Positions 14,744 through 64,000 of a stretch of 64,000 bases of DNA are shown here, one piece after another. This DNA is from Rhodospirillales bacterium (GTDB lineage: Bacteria > Pseudomonadota > Alphaproteobacteria > Reyranellales > Reyranellaceae). The DNA lies in contig WHTW01000015.1 of the NCBI GenBank assembly GCA_009377525.1, positions 1 through 64,000 of the forward strand, read 5' to 3'. Made by a program: the position numbers and the translations under genes. The notes below the pieces were generated by a model. The model did not search any database and was not told where the DNA came from. It was given only the letters and a program-made list of their open reading frames with translations. The number at the start of each line of letters is the position of its first letter. The stretch's first letter is position 1.

Positions 14744-15697
14744 GTGCACATCTATCGCCGAACTGCGACCGACAGCGGCGACGAACTGGGACGCGCCATT
14801 CCCGGCGCCAATTTCCATTGCGTGGCCGATTCCGGCCGTTCGTTCGGTGGGCGCTACTGGCACCTCCATCTCGACTGGGTGGTGCTCAGCCGCCTGGAAG
14901 TCGACCAGGCCAGTGTCGTCACCACCGACGAACGGGTGCCTGATTTCAGCGTCTGGCACGTCATGAGCACACGTTGCGCGGCGAATGGCCGGGATGTCGG
15001 CGGCAACGAGTTCGTCGAGGTGCGCCCCGGCGAGGGCGGCACCATGCGCAGCGCTGACGTCGCGCAGGTCACGACCTTCGGCTTGCAGTCGTCGCTGTTC
15101 TCCGAGGCGCCGGAACTCGACCTGCCGTTCGGCCCGTCCTCTTCGCAGCGAAGCGGCCGTTGGCGTATGGCGTCGGAAGCGCCGCGGCAGCGCTTCGAAG
15201 CCGTTACCCAGGCGATGTGGCGGCAACTCGAGGAGCAGCCGCGGCTGCTCGATTCGCCCGCCAACCGCATCGCCCTGCGCGATGCCCTGTTCGAGGCCAT
15301 CGCGCCGCTGGGCGAGGCGGGCACGTTCCGGCCGGACCGGGCCGCCGTGGGGCGTCACAACAGGATCGTGACGCGGCTCGAACGTGCCATCGAGGACGCC
15401 GGGGACCAGCCGCTCGACATGGTGGATCTCTGCCGGCAGGTCGGCGCTTCCCGGCGCTCGCTCGAAGCGGTCGTGCGCCAGCGCACCGGCAAGTCGCCGT
15501 GGGAGTATCTGCGCTGGCGCCGCCTGTGGCGGGCAAGGGCCATGCTGCGCGGGCCGACCGACGGCACGACCGTGACCGACGTCGCCTTCACGCTCGGCTT
15601 CTGGCACCTCAGCCGCTTCGCCGCCGCCTACGCGTCGATCTTCGGCGAGCGGCCGAGCGCCACGCTCGCACGCGCCCACGGCTCGAGCACGCACTGA
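14744..15697 (+). CDS. AraC family transcriptional regulator
   Basis: 317-residue DNA-binding regulator. The N-terminal two-thirds is a sensor domain without recognisable motif. The C-terminus carries two helix-turn-helix units of the AraC type: MVDLCRQVGASRRSLEAVVRQRTGKSP around residues 225-251, then TVTDVAFTLGFWHLSRFAAAY followed by FGERPS. Translation starts at a GTG at 14744; no other start keeps the sensor intact. The organisation resembles EutR-like regulators. It stands just upstream of, and co-oriented with, the outer-membrane protein/amidohydrolase/CobW/MFS set, which it may control (inference). Confidence 0.88.
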   Translation: MHIYRRTATDSGDELGRAIPGANFHCVADSGRSFGGRYWHLHLDWVVLSRLEVDQASVVTTDERVPDFSVWHVMSTRCAANGRDVGGNEFVEVRPGEGGTMRSADVAQVTTFGLQSSLFSEAPELDLPFGPSSSQRSGRWRMASEAPRQRFEAVTQAMWRQLEEQPRLLDSPANRIALRDALFEAIAPLGEAGTFRPDRAAVGRHNRIVTRLERAIEDAGDQPLDMVDLCRQVGASRRSLEAVVRQRTGKSPWEYLRWRRLWRARAMLRGPTDGTTVTDVAFTLGFWHLSRFAAAYASIFGERPSATLARAHGSSTH

Positions 15698-57635: not shown

Positions 57636-57920
57636 CTAGCAGCGGCGCCGCAGCCGGATTGCCGTGATCGCCGCGACCACGGCGCCGACCATCAGCCCCT
57701 CGAAGGTGAGATGACGCTGCAGGTCGAGAGCGAGGTTGCGCACGATGCGATAGAGGTAGGCGACCGGCTCGTCGAGCAGGTTGGCCGCTGCCGCCGTCCG
57801 CAAGCGCAGAAAGGCCTCCTGCACCACGTCCTCGGCCCGGCCGGGATCCCTGACGATCCGGTTGGCATAGGTCAGCAGGGCGCGGCGATGAGCAACGTAG
57901 AGCTCAACGTCCTGCTTCAA
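57636..57920 (-). pseudogene. Truncated FecI-like ECF sigma factor (region 2 only)
   Basis: 94 residues from a TTG at 57920, preceded by AGGAGGGG. The sequence ALLTYANRIVRDPGRAEDVVQEAFLRL and AYLYRIVRNLALDLQR is sigma-70 region 2 of the FecI type. It then runs into unrelated hydrophobic residues (MVGAVVAAITAIRLRRR) and stops, so region 4, needed for -35 recognition, is absent. Normal FecI proteins are near 160-180 residues, and no FecR gene is present. It lies just beyond the 3' end of the TonB-dependent receptor gene. It is most likely an inactive remnant of the receptor's regulator. Confidence 0.72.
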
Positions 57921-58012
57921 GGCACGCCCCTCCTGGTCACGCGGGCGACCACAAGCTAGTTCAAATGATAATCGTTCGCAATCAATTCTGCAACCTTCCT
58001 CGAGTAATAGGG

Positions 58013-60190
58013 TCAGAATCGGATTGTTGATCCCAACCCAAGGATCTGGCCTTGCCCGACGCGCACCGTCGGCGTGGTCGGCCCGAAGCTTTGGCCCCAT
58101 GTCTGATAGCGCTGGTCGAAGAGGTTGTAGGCAAAGCCATAGAGCTCGACTGCCTTGCCTTTCCAGCCGACCCGCAGGTTGACCACGCTGTAAGCGTCGA
58201 GGTTGAAGCTGTTGGCGACGTCGGCGGCGCGGGCGCCGACATACTGCCAGCTGCCGTGGCCGACGAAGTCGCCGTCGAGGCCAACGATGCTGGCCGGCAC
58301 CCGGTATTGGGCGCCCACGGTCGCGGTCACGCCCGGCACATTGGGCACCGTGTTGCCCGACAGCGCGCCGGTTGCGCTGCCGGGCGGCACGTTGACCAGC
58401 AGGGCGCGCGTCAGGCCGAGGCCCGCGAACAGTTCCAGGCCGGGCAGGGGCCGGACCGTGGCCTCGATCTCGGCGCCGTAGCTCTGATAGTCGAGGGCCG
58501 CGATGGTGAAAGCGGCACTCGACGGGTCGAACACCACGAGATGACCCTGCTTCACGTCGTTGAAGAAGAACGCCCCGTTCAGCGCCACGCGCTTGCCGGC
58601 GAACTCCGACTTGAAGCCGGCCTCGTATGTCCAGCTCGTCGAGGCGGGGAAGGCCTGCTCGGTCTTGCCGAGCGGGGCGTTCACCGAGAGGCTCGGAAAT
58701 CCCGCGGTGACATAGCCGCGGGCGATCGAGAGATAGGTCATGACCTGCTCGGTCCAGTCGTAGCTGAGACCGCCGCGGCCGCTGATGAAATTGTCCGACA
58801 GCGAGCTGTTCTGGTTGAAGAAGGGCACGACGCCCACCTGGCCGGCGCCGTTGAAGGCATAGGCCGCCGTCTTGCTCTCCAGCGTGCCGCGCAGGCCGAG
58901 CGTCGCCTTCAGCCTGTCGACGACGGGAATCGTTGCCTCGCCGAAGGCCGACCAGCTGTTGGTGACGAAGTCGTTGTTCATGAAGCCGCGGATGGTGGCG
59001 AAAGCCGGCGTCGTCGCGCGCCCGCTGCGGTCCATCGACAGGGTCGAGCGGAAATAGTTGAGGCCGGCCGTCCAGGCGACGGCGTTGTCCTGTGGCGCCG
59101 ACAGGCGCACCTCCTGGGTGAAGATGGTCTCGCCGATGGCGAGGTTGGCGAGGTCGGCGCCCGGCACGTTGAAGAAGCTGGCGGGCAGGCCGGTCAGATT
59201 GGCGAAGACCAATCCGTCGGCCGGATCGAAGATCTGGCGCGAATAGTTGTTCTGCCAGGTGGTGACCGATTCGAGCGCCGCCCAATCGAAGTCGTGCCTG
59301 ACCTTGAGATTGACGCCCAGCGAATCGCTGTCGACGTCGGTGCGCGGATTGACGGCGCTGGTGGGGAACCAGGCGTAGTTGCGCAGCAGGAAGCGCGGCG
59401 AGGTATCCTTTTGGCGATTGTAGGACAGGCTGAGCGTCGCCGACGTGTCGCCGGTCGGCTCGAGCAGCAGCGTGCCGCGTCCCGCCCAGATCTGCTGCAA
59501 GCCGTCCTTGCCGCCGACGGCGATGTTGGGGACGTCGCCGGCATAGCCCGAGTAGCGCATGGCGACGCGCGCGGCGAGCTGGTCGGCGACCAACGGCGCG
59601 TTCCACACGAACTCGCCCAGGCCGAAGCCCGAGGTGCCGATCTCGCCGCTCGCGGCGAACCCCCAATCGTAGGTCGGCTTCGTGGGCACGATGCTGACGG
59701 CGCCGGCCTGGGTGTTGCGGCCGAACAGGGTGCCTTGCGGTCCGCGCAGCACCTCGACGCGGTCGACGTCGAGCATGCTGGGGGCAGGGCCGTAGAGCGA
59801 CTGCGGCGCCTCGTTGACATAGAGGACGGTCGAGGTGTCGTCGGCGGAGATCGGCGAGAACGAGCCGACGCCGCGGATCGAGAACAGGTTGGACGACTGG
59901 CCGCCGACATCGACGAAGCTGACATTGGGGGCCGAGCGCGCGAGGCCGGCATTGGAGGCGGTGGGCGCGACGTCGAGCCGGCTGCCCTCGAGCACTGTCA
60001 TGCTGATGGGCACGCTCTGCTCGCTCTCGTCGCGCTTGCGCGCGGTTACGGTCACCGCGGGGAGCTCCAGGTCGACCTGCCGGGGGGCGTCGGACGGCGG
60101 CTGCTGCGCCTGGGCAGGACAGGCGACCGGCAACAACGCGACAAGGATCGCGACCGGTGCGCCGCGAGCAACGATTCCTCCAATACGCAT
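58013..60190 (-). CDS. TonB-dependent outer-membrane receptor
   Basis: 725-residue energy-coupled importer for iron chelates, vitamins or other large ligands. A signal peptide (VARGAPVAILVALLPVACPAQAQ) is followed by a TonB-box-like ELPAVTVTARKRDESEQSVPISMTV. The plug domain contains SNLFSIRGVGSFSP and VDRVEVLRGPQGTLFGRNTQAGAVSIVP, and a 22-stranded barrel ends GQILGLGSTIRF with the terminal aromatic. CTCGGGGGAGTTC supports the start at 60190. The ligand is unknown; similar receptors accept plant-derived compounds or siderophores. A TetR gene is divergent and a decayed FecI-like sigma lies downstream. Confidence 0.92.
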   Translation of the reverse strand: MRIGGIVARGAPVAILVALLPVACPAQAQQPPSDAPRQVDLELPAVTVTARKRDESEQSVPISMTVLEGSRLDVAPTASNAGLARSAPNVSFVDVGGQSSNLFSIRGVGSFSPISADDTSTVLYVNEAPQSLYGPAPSMLDVDRVEVLRGPQGTLFGRNTQAGAVSIVPTKPTYDWGFAASGEIGTSGFGLGEFVWNAPLVADQLAARVAMRYSGYAGDVPNIAVGGKDGLQQIWAGRGTLLLEPTGDTSATLSLSYNRQKDTSPRFLLRNYAWFPTSAVNPRTDVDSDSLGVNLKVRHDFDWAALESVTTWQNNYSRQIFDPADGLVFANLTGLPASFFNVPGADLANLAIGETIFTQEVRLSAPQDNAVAWTAGLNYFRSTLSMDRSGRATTPAFATIRGFMNNDFVTNSWSAFGEATIPVVDRLKATLGLRGTLESKTAAYAFNGAGQVGVVPFFNQNSSLSDNFISGRGGLSYDWTEQVMTYLSIARGYVTAGFPSLSVNAPLGKTEQAFPASTSWTYEAGFKSEFAGKRVALNGAFFFNDVKQGHLVVFDPSSAAFTIAALDYQSYGAEIEATVRPLPGLELFAGLGLTRALLVNVPPGSATGALSGNTVPNVPGVTATVGAQYRVPASIVGLDGDFVGHGSWQYVGARAADVANSFNLDAYSVVNLRVGWKGKAVELYGFAYNLFDQRYQTWGQSFGPTTPTVRVGQGQILGLGSTIRF

Positions 60191-60289
60191 GAACTCCCCC
60201 GAGAAAGCCTGGCGGTCGCCTTTCCGGTGGCTGGCGGCGGGATGATCCGACGCGGGCTGGCAGAATTTGCGATTGACTCGCAATAGCGC

Positions 60290-61690: not shown

Positions 61691-63469
61691 TCAAGGCCGG
61701 CCGTAGGCGCCGGCCAGAAGTCGCGCCCTGGCGCGCGAGCGGCTGAGCTTTCCGGAGGAAGTGAGCGGCAAACCGACGCGTCGGGAGATCAGCTCGATGC
61801 GGCAATCGATGCCGGCCGTCTCCTTGACGGTCTGGCGGATGCTGCCGATCAGGGCGTCGCGCTCGTCGGCGTCGCCGGCGGAGGCTTGCACCAGGACGAC
61901 GACCTGCTCGCCGTCGTCGCTGTCGGTCGAGAAGGCGCAGGCATCGCCGCGACGCACCCCCGACAGCGCCTCGACGGCCCATTCGATATCCTGCGGCCAG
62001 ATGTTGCGGCCGTTGACGATGATGAGATCCTTGGCGCGACCGGTGATGGCGAGCTCGCCATCGCACCAGTAGCCGAGATCGCCGGTGTCGAGCCAGCCGT
62101 CGGCGAGCACGCGCGCGCTTTCCGCCTCCTCGCCGAAATAGCCCGGCATGACGCTGCGGCCGCGCACGAACAGCCGACCGATCTCGCGTTCGCCGAGCGG
62201 CCTGCCGCTGGCATCGCGTATTTCCACGCGATGGTCGGCCATGACGCGGCCGCATAGCACGAACTCGCGAGGGCCGCGGCGGTCGGCTCTCAAGCCGGCA
62301 AATCGCCCGCCGAAGCTCAAGCCGACGCAGACTTCGGCCAGGCCGTAGCTCGCCATGAAGGCGCGGTCGTCGAAGCCCCGGCAGGCGAAGGTGTCGGCGA
62401 AGCGGCGGAGCGCCGTGCGCCGGATCATGTCGGCGCCGACGCCCGCCAGTTTCAGGCACGACAGGTCGAGGTCGCCCGGCATCTGCGCCTGCGCCCGGCG
62501 GGCGACCAGCTCGTAGCCGAAGCCCGGGCTGTAGGTGATGGTGGCGCGCCGTCGCGAGATCAGCGACAGCCAGGTCAACGGCCGGCGGGCGAACTCGCGT
62601 GGCGCCATCAGATCGACGCTGCGCTGGGCGCACATCGGCGCCAGCACGAAACCGATCAGGCCCATGTCGTGATAGAGCGGCAGCCAGCTCACGCCGGAAT
62701 CTCCGGCGTCGATCTGCTGGCTGGCCAGCGCGCCGTCGATGTTGGCCATGAGCTGGTCCTGGCGGATATCGACGCCCAGCGGCCGGCGCGTGCTGCCGGA
62801 CGAGAACTGCACGTAGCAGCGCTCACCCGCGCCGAGCGGCCTCGGCTCATCGGGCGATAGCGGCAACGCCTCGAACATCGACATCGCACCGGCCAGGCGC
62901 GCCGATGTGCCGGCCGCGGCGGCCACCGCGAAATCCGCGAGCTCGTCGGGGGCGAGGATGCCGACGGCTCCGGCCGCGACGATCTGGCGGCGAAGCTGGG
63001 CGATGTGGCTTTCCTTGGCGCCGAGGCCGACGGGAACGGCAACCGGAACGGCCAGCACGCCGGCATACTGGGCCGCGAAGAAGGCCACGCAGAAGCCCGG
63101 CCAGCTGTCTGCCACGATGACCAGCCGCTCGCCGCGCCTCACGCCCGCACCCATCAGTCGGCGGGCCAACTGCCGGGCCTGCTCGCGGAGAACGCCATAG
63201 GGCAGGCATGCCGTCAGGCGACCTCGCGCATCGAAGAAATTGAGGCCGGTCTCGCCTTGGGCAGCGTAGTCGAGGGCCACGCAGAGGCTGGTGAAGCCGC
63301 CGCGGCGAAACCGAAGAGCGGCGTTGCGCGTTGGCGTCGGCACCACGCCCGGGCGGGCCGCCGGGGTCTCCGAGAGTGTGCAGGCGTAGCGTTGCAGTCG
63401 GCTGGCATCGCTGTCGGATGCGACAGCATCTGAAAAAGGCGCAGGCAAGGGTCCACGGATCGACGTCAT
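61691..63469 (-). CDS. Fatty acyl-AMP ligase (FAAL-type adenylate-forming enzyme)
   Basis: 592-residue ANL enzyme of the fatty acyl-AMP ligase type, which loads acyl-adenylates onto carrier proteins or polyketide/lipid synthases rather than onto CoA. LNFFDARGRLTACLPYGVLREQARQLARRL is the FAAL N-terminus. The ATP loop is CYVQFSSGSTRRPLGVDI, and SWLPLYHDMGLIGFVLAPM is the highly characteristic FAAL motif. YGLAEVCVGLSFGG, DGWLDTGDLGYWCDGELAITGRAKDLIIVNGRNIWPQDIE and a late SSGKLSRSRARA complete it. The start at 63469 follows GGGAG. Upstream, across an 88-base leader, lies a cobalamin riboswitch, so expression should fall when B12 is plentiful. No polyketide synthase is visible in the window. Confidence 0.88.
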   Translation of the reverse strand: MTSIRGPLPAPFSDAVASDSDASRLQRYACTLSETPAARPGVVPTPTRNAALRFRRGGFTSLCVALDYAAQGETGLNFFDARGRLTACLPYGVLREQARQLARRLMGAGVRRGERLVIVADSWPGFCVAFFAAQYAGVLAVPVAVPVGLGAKESHIAQLRRQIVAAGAVGILAPDELADFAVAAAAGTSARLAGAMSMFEALPLSPDEPRPLGAGERCYVQFSSGSTRRPLGVDIRQDQLMANIDGALASQQIDAGDSGVSWLPLYHDMGLIGFVLAPMCAQRSVDLMAPREFARRPLTWLSLISRRRATITYSPGFGYELVARRAQAQMPGDLDLSCLKLAGVGADMIRRTALRRFADTFACRGFDDRAFMASYGLAEVCVGLSFGGRFAGLRADRRGPREFVLCGRVMADHRVEIRDASGRPLGEREIGRLFVRGRSVMPGYFGEEAESARVLADGWLDTGDLGYWCDGELAITGRAKDLIIVNGRNIWPQDIEWAVEALSGVRRGDACAFSTDSDDGEQVVVLVQASAGDADERDALIGSIRQTVKETAGIDCRIELISRRVGLPLTSSGKLSRSRARARLLAGAYGRP

Positions 63470-63557
63470 CTGACGATCTCCCAAACGGTTCACGCACGAG
63501 GCGCGTCACCGCTCGGTTGACCGTCCCGTTGGAACATCCCGTCCACGGAAGAGCGAC

Positions 63558-63740
63558 GCTATCGCCGGCAGGTCTTCTGGCTCGCGGGTCCCGGCTCCTG
63601 CCCGTCTTCCCAGACTTGCGTCCAGTGACGTGTGGGCATTCGCTCGCCGCTTACAGCTGCGGGTACAGCTGCCGATTGGCTCCCGAGGGAGCGGCACGGC
63701 ATTCCCTGTTCGCCTCCGTTAAGGAGGACCGTCGATGCAT
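63558..63740 (-). promoter_or_regulatory. Cobalamin (AdoCbl) riboswitch
   Basis: On the reverse strand the RNA begins near 63740. It shows a CCTCC/GGAGG hairpin followed by GAACAGGGAA, then TGCCGTGCC, GCAGCTGTACCCGCAGCTGTAAGCGG (the conserved junction CCCGCAGCTGTAAGCGG) and TCACTGG. The B12 box AGCCAGAAGACCTGCC lies at 63582-63567. These are the core elements of the class-I cobalamin riboswitch in the right order and spacing. It lies upstream of the fatty acyl-AMP ligase in the same orientation. Confidence 0.9.
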
Positions 63741-63745
63741 TGTCG

Positions 63746-64000
63746 TTAGTGTGCAGAGCGCCCGCGGTCAAGCTCGTGCCAACATGCGACGATTGCTCCG
63801 CCGCCCGCTGTTGACGCCGCGCCCTTCAGGGAATTCTCGCCAGCGACCACGCGACGACGCACCGTTGCGCACAGCGCCCAAACGGCACGAAATGTCATTG
63901 AAATGACCCTGACTCGGTGTTCGGCAGGCCGGCCCGAAGGACGCGATGCCGCCGGGGCGGCGGTCACGCTGGTTCTAAAGAATGCGGCGGGGAAGTCCGG
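63746..64000. other. Region upstream of the riboswitch, no gene recognised
   Basis: About 255 bases to the window edge without a credible gene on either strand. Open frames here are short and lack motifs. The promoter of the riboswitch transcript must lie close to 63750-63790, but no clear -35/-10 pair is visible. Confidence 0.4.

Follow-up and report, generated by a model that had tools for sequence, protein, structure and literature searches.

Why should a fatty acid-activating ligase stand behind a vitamin B12 sensor? This question is raised by the last part of the window, a 64,000-nt stretch of DNA from a Reyranella genome (G000, a 7.35-Mb draft), in which the original prediction had placed the core motifs of a B12 riboswitch, including the B12 box, on the minus strand in front of a fatty acyl-AMP ligase (FAAL) gene.

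The riboswitch and its expression platform

Scanning the window against Rfam returned a match to RF00174 and to no other family. The match lies at 63549–63748 on the minus strand, covers the covariance model completely (positions 1–189) and scores 118.8 bits (E 3.4e-29), far above the gathering threshold of 31.5 bits. The element is a true cobalamin riboswitch and an ordinary member of RF00174, one of three B12 riboswitches in the source genome; the original prediction was right in its coordinates and core motifs. Corrinoid binding and a resulting change of expression are its predicted function. The features of the locus are as follows:

63549–63748, minus strand: complete cobalamin riboswitch aptamer (RF00174, 118.8 bits)
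63567–63582, minus strand: B12 box AGCCAGAAGACCTGCC, the 3' strand of the aptamer core (sequence and RF00174 match)
63530–63545, minus strand: P13/L13 hairpin UGGA-CGGGAUGU-UCCA, in which CGGG of L13 is complementary to CCCG of L5 (UACCCG)
63472–63525, minus strand: expression-platform hairpin predicted to sequester the Shine-Dalgarno sequence (MFE, ensemble and consensus folds)
63478–63482, minus strand: Shine-Dalgarno sequence GGGAG (sequence and leader alignment)
63455–63469, minus strand: start codon and codons 2–5, ATGACGTCGATCCGT, encoding MTSIR, a conserved part of the cassette common to btuB genes
61691–63469, minus strand: stand-alone acyl-adenylate-forming ligase of 592 aa, FAAL/PRK09192 family, assigned to the AasR lineage (profile, structure and tree)

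The leader alignment and the predicted folds point to control at the level of translation. The B12 box was present in all FAAL leaders, UACCCG of L5 and CGGG of L13 were identical in 24 of 24 FAAL leaders and in most btuB leaders, and the columns of the P13/L13 hairpin were invariant, so that the complementarity required for an L5/L13 kissing loop was found in all 24. The Shine-Dalgarno sequence was paired in both the MFE and the ensemble fold, in the latter with a probability near 1 except for the GA in its internal loop, as expected of a platform that hides the ribosome binding site. Nearly every FAAL leader combined the kissing loop with this hairpin. The fold of the platform had a z-score of −2.1 in the window and −4.1 in one relative; the sequence hardly varies, and covariation in the RNAalifold consensus was too low to test the fold. 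For the kissing-loop-stabilised P13 architecture, the published model is repression of translation (PMC10653944), and because this is the known mechanism, we infer by analogy that high adenosylcobalamin would turn translation off.

The terminator search found no terminator-like site between the aptamer and the start codon; its single weak match (63440–63457) lies inside the coding sequence and is not above chance. A riboswitch transcript ending before the ligase, which would have detached the two, is thus not indicated by any preceding terminator. The search for a sigma-70 promoter recognised none. Since the next genes past the ligase lie on the plus strand, the predicted transcription unit comprises the ligase gene alone. 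Its start is best placed at ATG 63469 and not at GTG 63493, because the Shine-Dalgarno sequence and ATGACGTCGATCCG occur at this position in almost all relatives.

Three further candidate features were considered and set aside. A conserved leader peptide was rejected, the leader being open in some relatives with a frame that shifts by 1–2 nt between lineages, which marks it as non-coding. An antisequestor formed by an alternative GUCA/UGAC stem costs about 6 kcal/mol when forced and does not free the Shine-Dalgarno sequence. Finally, AUCGACG in the 5' strand of P1 (about 63728–63736) is complementary to CGUCGAU of codons 2–4 (within 63455–63469), perfectly so in most FAAL leaders and not in most btuB copies. 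The long-range pairing that RNAalifold proposes here is not claimed, as most btuB copies disrupt it and show no compensatory changes.

Elsewhere in the window, a TonB-dependent receptor at 58013–60283 (minus strand) resembles siderophore receptors (TIGR01783, 142 bits, below cut-off) rather than BtuB, and a frame downstream of it (about 57640–58000) reads like an ECF sigma factor.

Conservation of the pair and kinship with btuB

We next turn to the relatives of this locus. The expression-platform core of the cassette lies directly upstream in 25 of 35 ligase orthologues from 65 Reyranella genomes, a count obtained by joining two coordinate lists by hand, with orthologues defined by at least 63% identity to the window ligase and truncated copies left out. 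Genes were called by a simple in-house script, most of the genomes are drafts or MAGs, and genome counts do not equal independent events. Of the ten orthologues lacking the riboswitch, nine group in a single clade at another, fixed locus (EamA transporter/SDR), and the Rfam scan found no riboswitch in those copies of this locus that it covered; in the tenth, folE is the gene immediately upstream (L104). Because of these ten, B12 control is not essential to the role of the enzyme. Outside the genus, the flanks of 26 ligase homologues contained no B12 riboswitch, and none of the non-Reyranella genomes in a set of 385 from the class had the cassette core.

Riboswitch–ligase units are found in no fewer than five different gene neighbourhoods. 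Some stand head to head with another riboswitch, the one that precedes btuB-btuFCD; others adjoin nitrile hydratase genes, follow metE or separate a beta-lactamase-like hydrolase from a cyclase/CobW pair; still others, the window's among them, stand alone. This variety suggests that the unit keeps its riboswitch through relocation. It also rules out a deletion scar or lost intermediate gene, the pair standing alone in many neighbourhoods with no better candidate between riboswitch and ligase in relatives. The pairing is therefore conserved in the sense that the original prediction had asked about. Cultured members of the genus that have the pair include R. massiliensis 521, R. soli and R. aquatilis.

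The distance from B12 box to start codon ranges from 94 to 98 nt across the pairs. Among 16 relatives, pairwise identity was 85% in the aptamer, 90% in the platform and 96% in codons 1–5, then 51% in codons 6–43 and 74% in the rest of the gene (58% at third positions). Conservation is much higher in the leader than in the coding sequence that adjoins it. The ligase itself has a dN/dS of about 0.09–0.23 in these relatives. Selection on the riboswitch–ligase pair is well supported by such comparisons, as is the predicted regulatory link between the two.

The same cassette precedes btuB of Reyranella, whose first codons read MTPIR, MTPFR or MTSIR. In the riboswitch tree, most FAAL leaders group together and apart from most btuB leaders, with many branches weakly supported, and the branching of the FAAL riboswitches broadly follows the ligase tree. 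We take the ligase riboswitch to be an old btuB cassette copy, which has diverged and has travelled with the ligase ever since. Other targets of the cassette are the btuB-(CN hydrolase)-btuFCD operon, a NiCoT-like transporter, a CbiX-like/2Fe-2S protein, a TonB receptor and a small outer-membrane protein. All of these are linked to B12 import, cobalt or the outer membrane, and the ligase alone departs from the pattern. In several genomes ligase and btuB stand head to head (L047, L048, L049, L083). In the source genome no gene other than the ligase has the exact cassette core, and a search run without a positive control found no btuB of the cassette-bearing type. A B12-binding radical SAM protein of the KedN5 type (L234, C182:11050–11286; 281 bits, below cut-off) is one of only four PF02310 proteins in this genome.

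Several observations concern other members and neighbours of the regulon. An outer-membrane-like protein of roughly 300 aa, with no Pfam or NCBIfam name, carries a FAAL-like cassette and an MTSI- start in two genomes (L142, 2520–3428; L165, 5593–6498). Its cassette branches with the FAAL leaders, and the ligases of these genomes are riboswitch-free (G018) or reduced to a fragment (G030); the cassette may possibly have been transferred from the ligase to this gene. The B12-import operon of Reyranella regularly includes a CN_hydrolase gene (PF00795; L047, 5096–5863; L079; L107, 7749–8603; L159), several copies of which start with a twin-arginine-like leader. In one genome (G078) this gene no longer lies in the btuB operon and instead shares 4 nt with the 3' end of the ligase gene (L107, L185). 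A DUF6925 gene (PF21973) adjoins the btuB riboswitch (L050, 2440–3354; L047, 8100–9053; L197, 5468–6355) and in some genomes also lies beside nitrile hydratase. At another Reyranella locus (L058), a SECIS_3 element at 14884–14942 (RF01989, 78 bits) lies inside an apparent formate dehydrogenase gene, which probably encodes a selenoprotein.

Identity and descent of the ligase

The ligase scored 666 bits against the NCBIfam model PRK09192, "fatty acyl-AMP ligase" (NF006624, cut-off 600), and sequence and predicted fold together identified the E. coli FAAL 3pbk as the closest solved structure (TM 0.78/0.83). The catalytic motifs are intact; Lys574, in the motif LTSSGK of the C-terminal domain, is invariant in all aligned relatives. 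Residues 1–40 are predicted to be disordered (pLDDT below 40), which fits an N-terminus brought along with the riboswitch cassette. The region of the FAAL-specific insertion (FSI) comprises 23 residues in the window ligase and 29 in the other riboswitch clade, shorter than the about 44 of a typical AasR. With the FSI so shortened, the enzyme may use CoA. Deletion of the FSI alone is reported to yield weak acyl-CoA formation only (PMC8460268); we therefore use "FAAL" as a family name and not for a proven acceptor. The likelier acceptor is ACP rather than CoA. A second, diverged ligase copy (68% identical) in the source genome (L044, 7607–10146; C15:12600–15150) is split over two overlapping frames by a frameshift or an assembly error, with a gene for a small acyl carrier protein (PF00550) close by.

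The 3PBK family contains AasR, which in Caulobacter loads fatty acids onto a special ACP for sphingolipid synthesis and rejects both CoA and the housekeeping ACP (PMC9386255). Reyranella keeps a separate AasR paralogue, 53–58% identical to the window ligase (L045, L230), which clusters with serine palmitoyltransferase (SPT; NF047599, 644 bits, cut-off 500), ACP and epimerase genes. The flanks of these AasR genes contained no B12 riboswitch. The nearest relative of the riboswitch-linked ligases outside the genus belongs to an SPT-AcpR-epimerase cluster of a sister-genus genome (G250, L228), the SPT being identified by NCBIfam in L045 and by gene order and sequence likeness only in L228. Because the riboswitch-linked ligases form one clade with this cluster ligase (support 100/99), we conclude, judging from the tree, that their ancestor was an acyl-ACP synthetase of sphingolipid synthesis whose gene moved out of its cluster; no Reyranella locus of the riboswitch-linked clade has an SPT or AcpR neighbour. 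The sister relation of the two riboswitch clades had a tree support of just 49/4. What we claim for the ligase is an AasR lineage, as the tree suggests, and not membership as a working AasR.

These results bear on how the target was first described. Its assignment to the FAAL family stands; the wording "lipid/polyketide starter ligase" does not, since the tree leads to AasR, and no PKS or NRPS genes were seen beside the ligase in the relatives examined. The suggestion of an acyl-derived metabolite responsive to B12 finds no support.

Proposed role, alternatives and comparison with known systems

Taken together, we consider it somewhat better than an even bet that a btuB-derived B12 riboswitch represses an acyl-ACP-forming ligase of the AasR lineage that serves an envelope lipid. 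With adenosylcobalamin bound, the L5/L13 kissing loop would stabilise P13 and favour the hairpin that buries the Shine-Dalgarno sequence, and the ligase would not be made. When B12 is scarce, the hairpin would open and the ligase would be translated along with the B12 importer of the same regulon. The enzyme would then activate free fatty acids with ATP to acyl-AMP, and the acyl chains would be loaded on an acyl carrier protein, either the sphingolipid AcpR or another ACP. B12 shortage would thereby raise acyl-ACP formation and alter the acyl-chain supply for an envelope lipid. The acyl acceptor and the product are putative, and the envelope-lipid use is the weakest step; the CN-hydrolase of the btuB operon, found at the ligase gene in G078, offers one clue to it. 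A stronger version, in which B12 status directly sets envelope lipid composition through a B12-repressed, relocated sphingolipid-type acyl-ACP synthetase that is switched on with a TonB-dependent importer and perhaps remodels the outer membrane, is tentative and in our view rather doubtful.

One alternative, close to the link with propionate/methylmalonyl metabolism raised in the original prediction, is that fatty acids are rerouted when B12-dependent carbon assimilation stops: the acyl-CoA mutase would stall without B12, products of beta-oxidation would go unassimilated, and the ligase would keep fatty acids as acyl-ACP for lipids. A single B12-dependent acyl-CoA mutase is encoded in the source genome (C201; it scores 525 bits with the methylmalonyl-CoA mutase model, whose cut-off is 876), and the isocitrate lyase matches of this genome are short and partial (54 bits or less, about 90–100 of 526 positions), so that acetyl-CoA assimilation is likely B12-dependent. 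However, the ligase never adjoins mutase or carboxylase genes, and a full-length ligase is missing from about half of the Reyranella genomes. We regard this explanation as unlikely.

The gene neighbourhoods suggest another role, as the last step of a nitrile/amide route in which nitrile hydratase and a CN-hydrolase (amidase/nitrilase) precede acid activation, with the B12/cobalt link provided by cobalt or CobW-type proteins. Nitrile hydratase subunits adjoin riboswitch-ligase or btuB units (L050, L056, L058, L197), the hydrolase/cyclase locus has a CobW GTPase at a distance of two genes, and the CN-hydrolase belongs to the regulon and, in one genome, to the ligase operon. Yet nitrile hydratase lies outside riboswitch control, its motif CTLCSCT is no clear mark of the cobalt type, and the neighbourhoods vary, none uniting all parts with the ligase, which makes such a route quite unlikely.

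Regulatory capture without benefit, in which the btuB riboswitch was gained by duplication and B12 control persists as an accident, would explain why ligase and btuB leaders are alike down to the first five codons, and it is also consistent with the head-to-head loci and with the two outer-membrane genes whose cassettes branch among the FAAL leaders (L142, L165). A useless element would decay like the adjoining codons 6–43, whereas aptamer, kissing loop and Shine-Dalgarno hairpin are intact even across orthologues with no more than 62–64% protein identity and in unrelated neighbourhoods; we consider this reading improbable. Highly improbable is an action of the ligase and the exported-looking CN-hydrolase on corrinoid uptake, for example through an acylated corrinoid-binding or corrinoid-modifying compound, since, although co-regulation with the B12 importer, frequent proximity to it and the movement of the CN-hydrolase between btuB and ligase operons speak for it, we know of no such chemistry, no peptide- or amine-acylating partner was seen, and the ligase appears to descend from a sphingolipid enzyme.

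The preferred account, B12 repression of an AasR-lineage ligase, would tie a cofactor sensor to acyl-chain activation, and B12 supply would probably control a lipid-making step not previously linked to B12; the regulon itself predicts such an unrecognised B12–lipid link. The locus would also provide a case of a riboswitch cassette that, first codons included, was copied within a genus from a transporter to unrelated genes and kept by selection.

Compared with AasR (CC_1165 of Caulobacter crescentus; E. coli FAAL 3PBK family), the Reyranella ligase belongs to the same PRK09192 family and keeps the catalytic motifs, and its closest relative from another genus is part of an SPT-AcpR-epimerase-ligase cluster. 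It differs in lying outside that cluster, in which a second AasR stays, in having gained a B12 riboswitch in most lineages, and in its 40-residue disordered N-terminal extension and shortened insertion region. The RNA resembles a btuB-type RF00174 riboswitch in its complete aptamer, B12 box, L5/L13 complementarity and predicted Shine-Dalgarno-sequestering hairpin directly 5' of the start codon. In contrast, the gene that it controls is an acyl ligase, and the conserved cassette, which takes in codons 1–5, is common to several paralogous leaders within a single genus. Known cobalamin regulons comprise four categories of targets, namely B12 synthesis, B12 transport, cobalt transport and isozymes of B12 enzymes (PMC3766115). 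The rest of the Reyranella regulon fits them with B12 import, cobalt transport and cobalamin synthesis, whereas an acyl-ACP/CoA ligase, judged by family and tree, falls in none. A literature search of incomplete coverage did not find a cobalamin riboswitch together with a fatty acyl-AMP ligase, and the acyl ligase appears to be a new class of cobalamin riboswitch target. What seems new here is thus the ligase as a target and the reuse of the cassette within a genus, while the RNA itself is ordinary.
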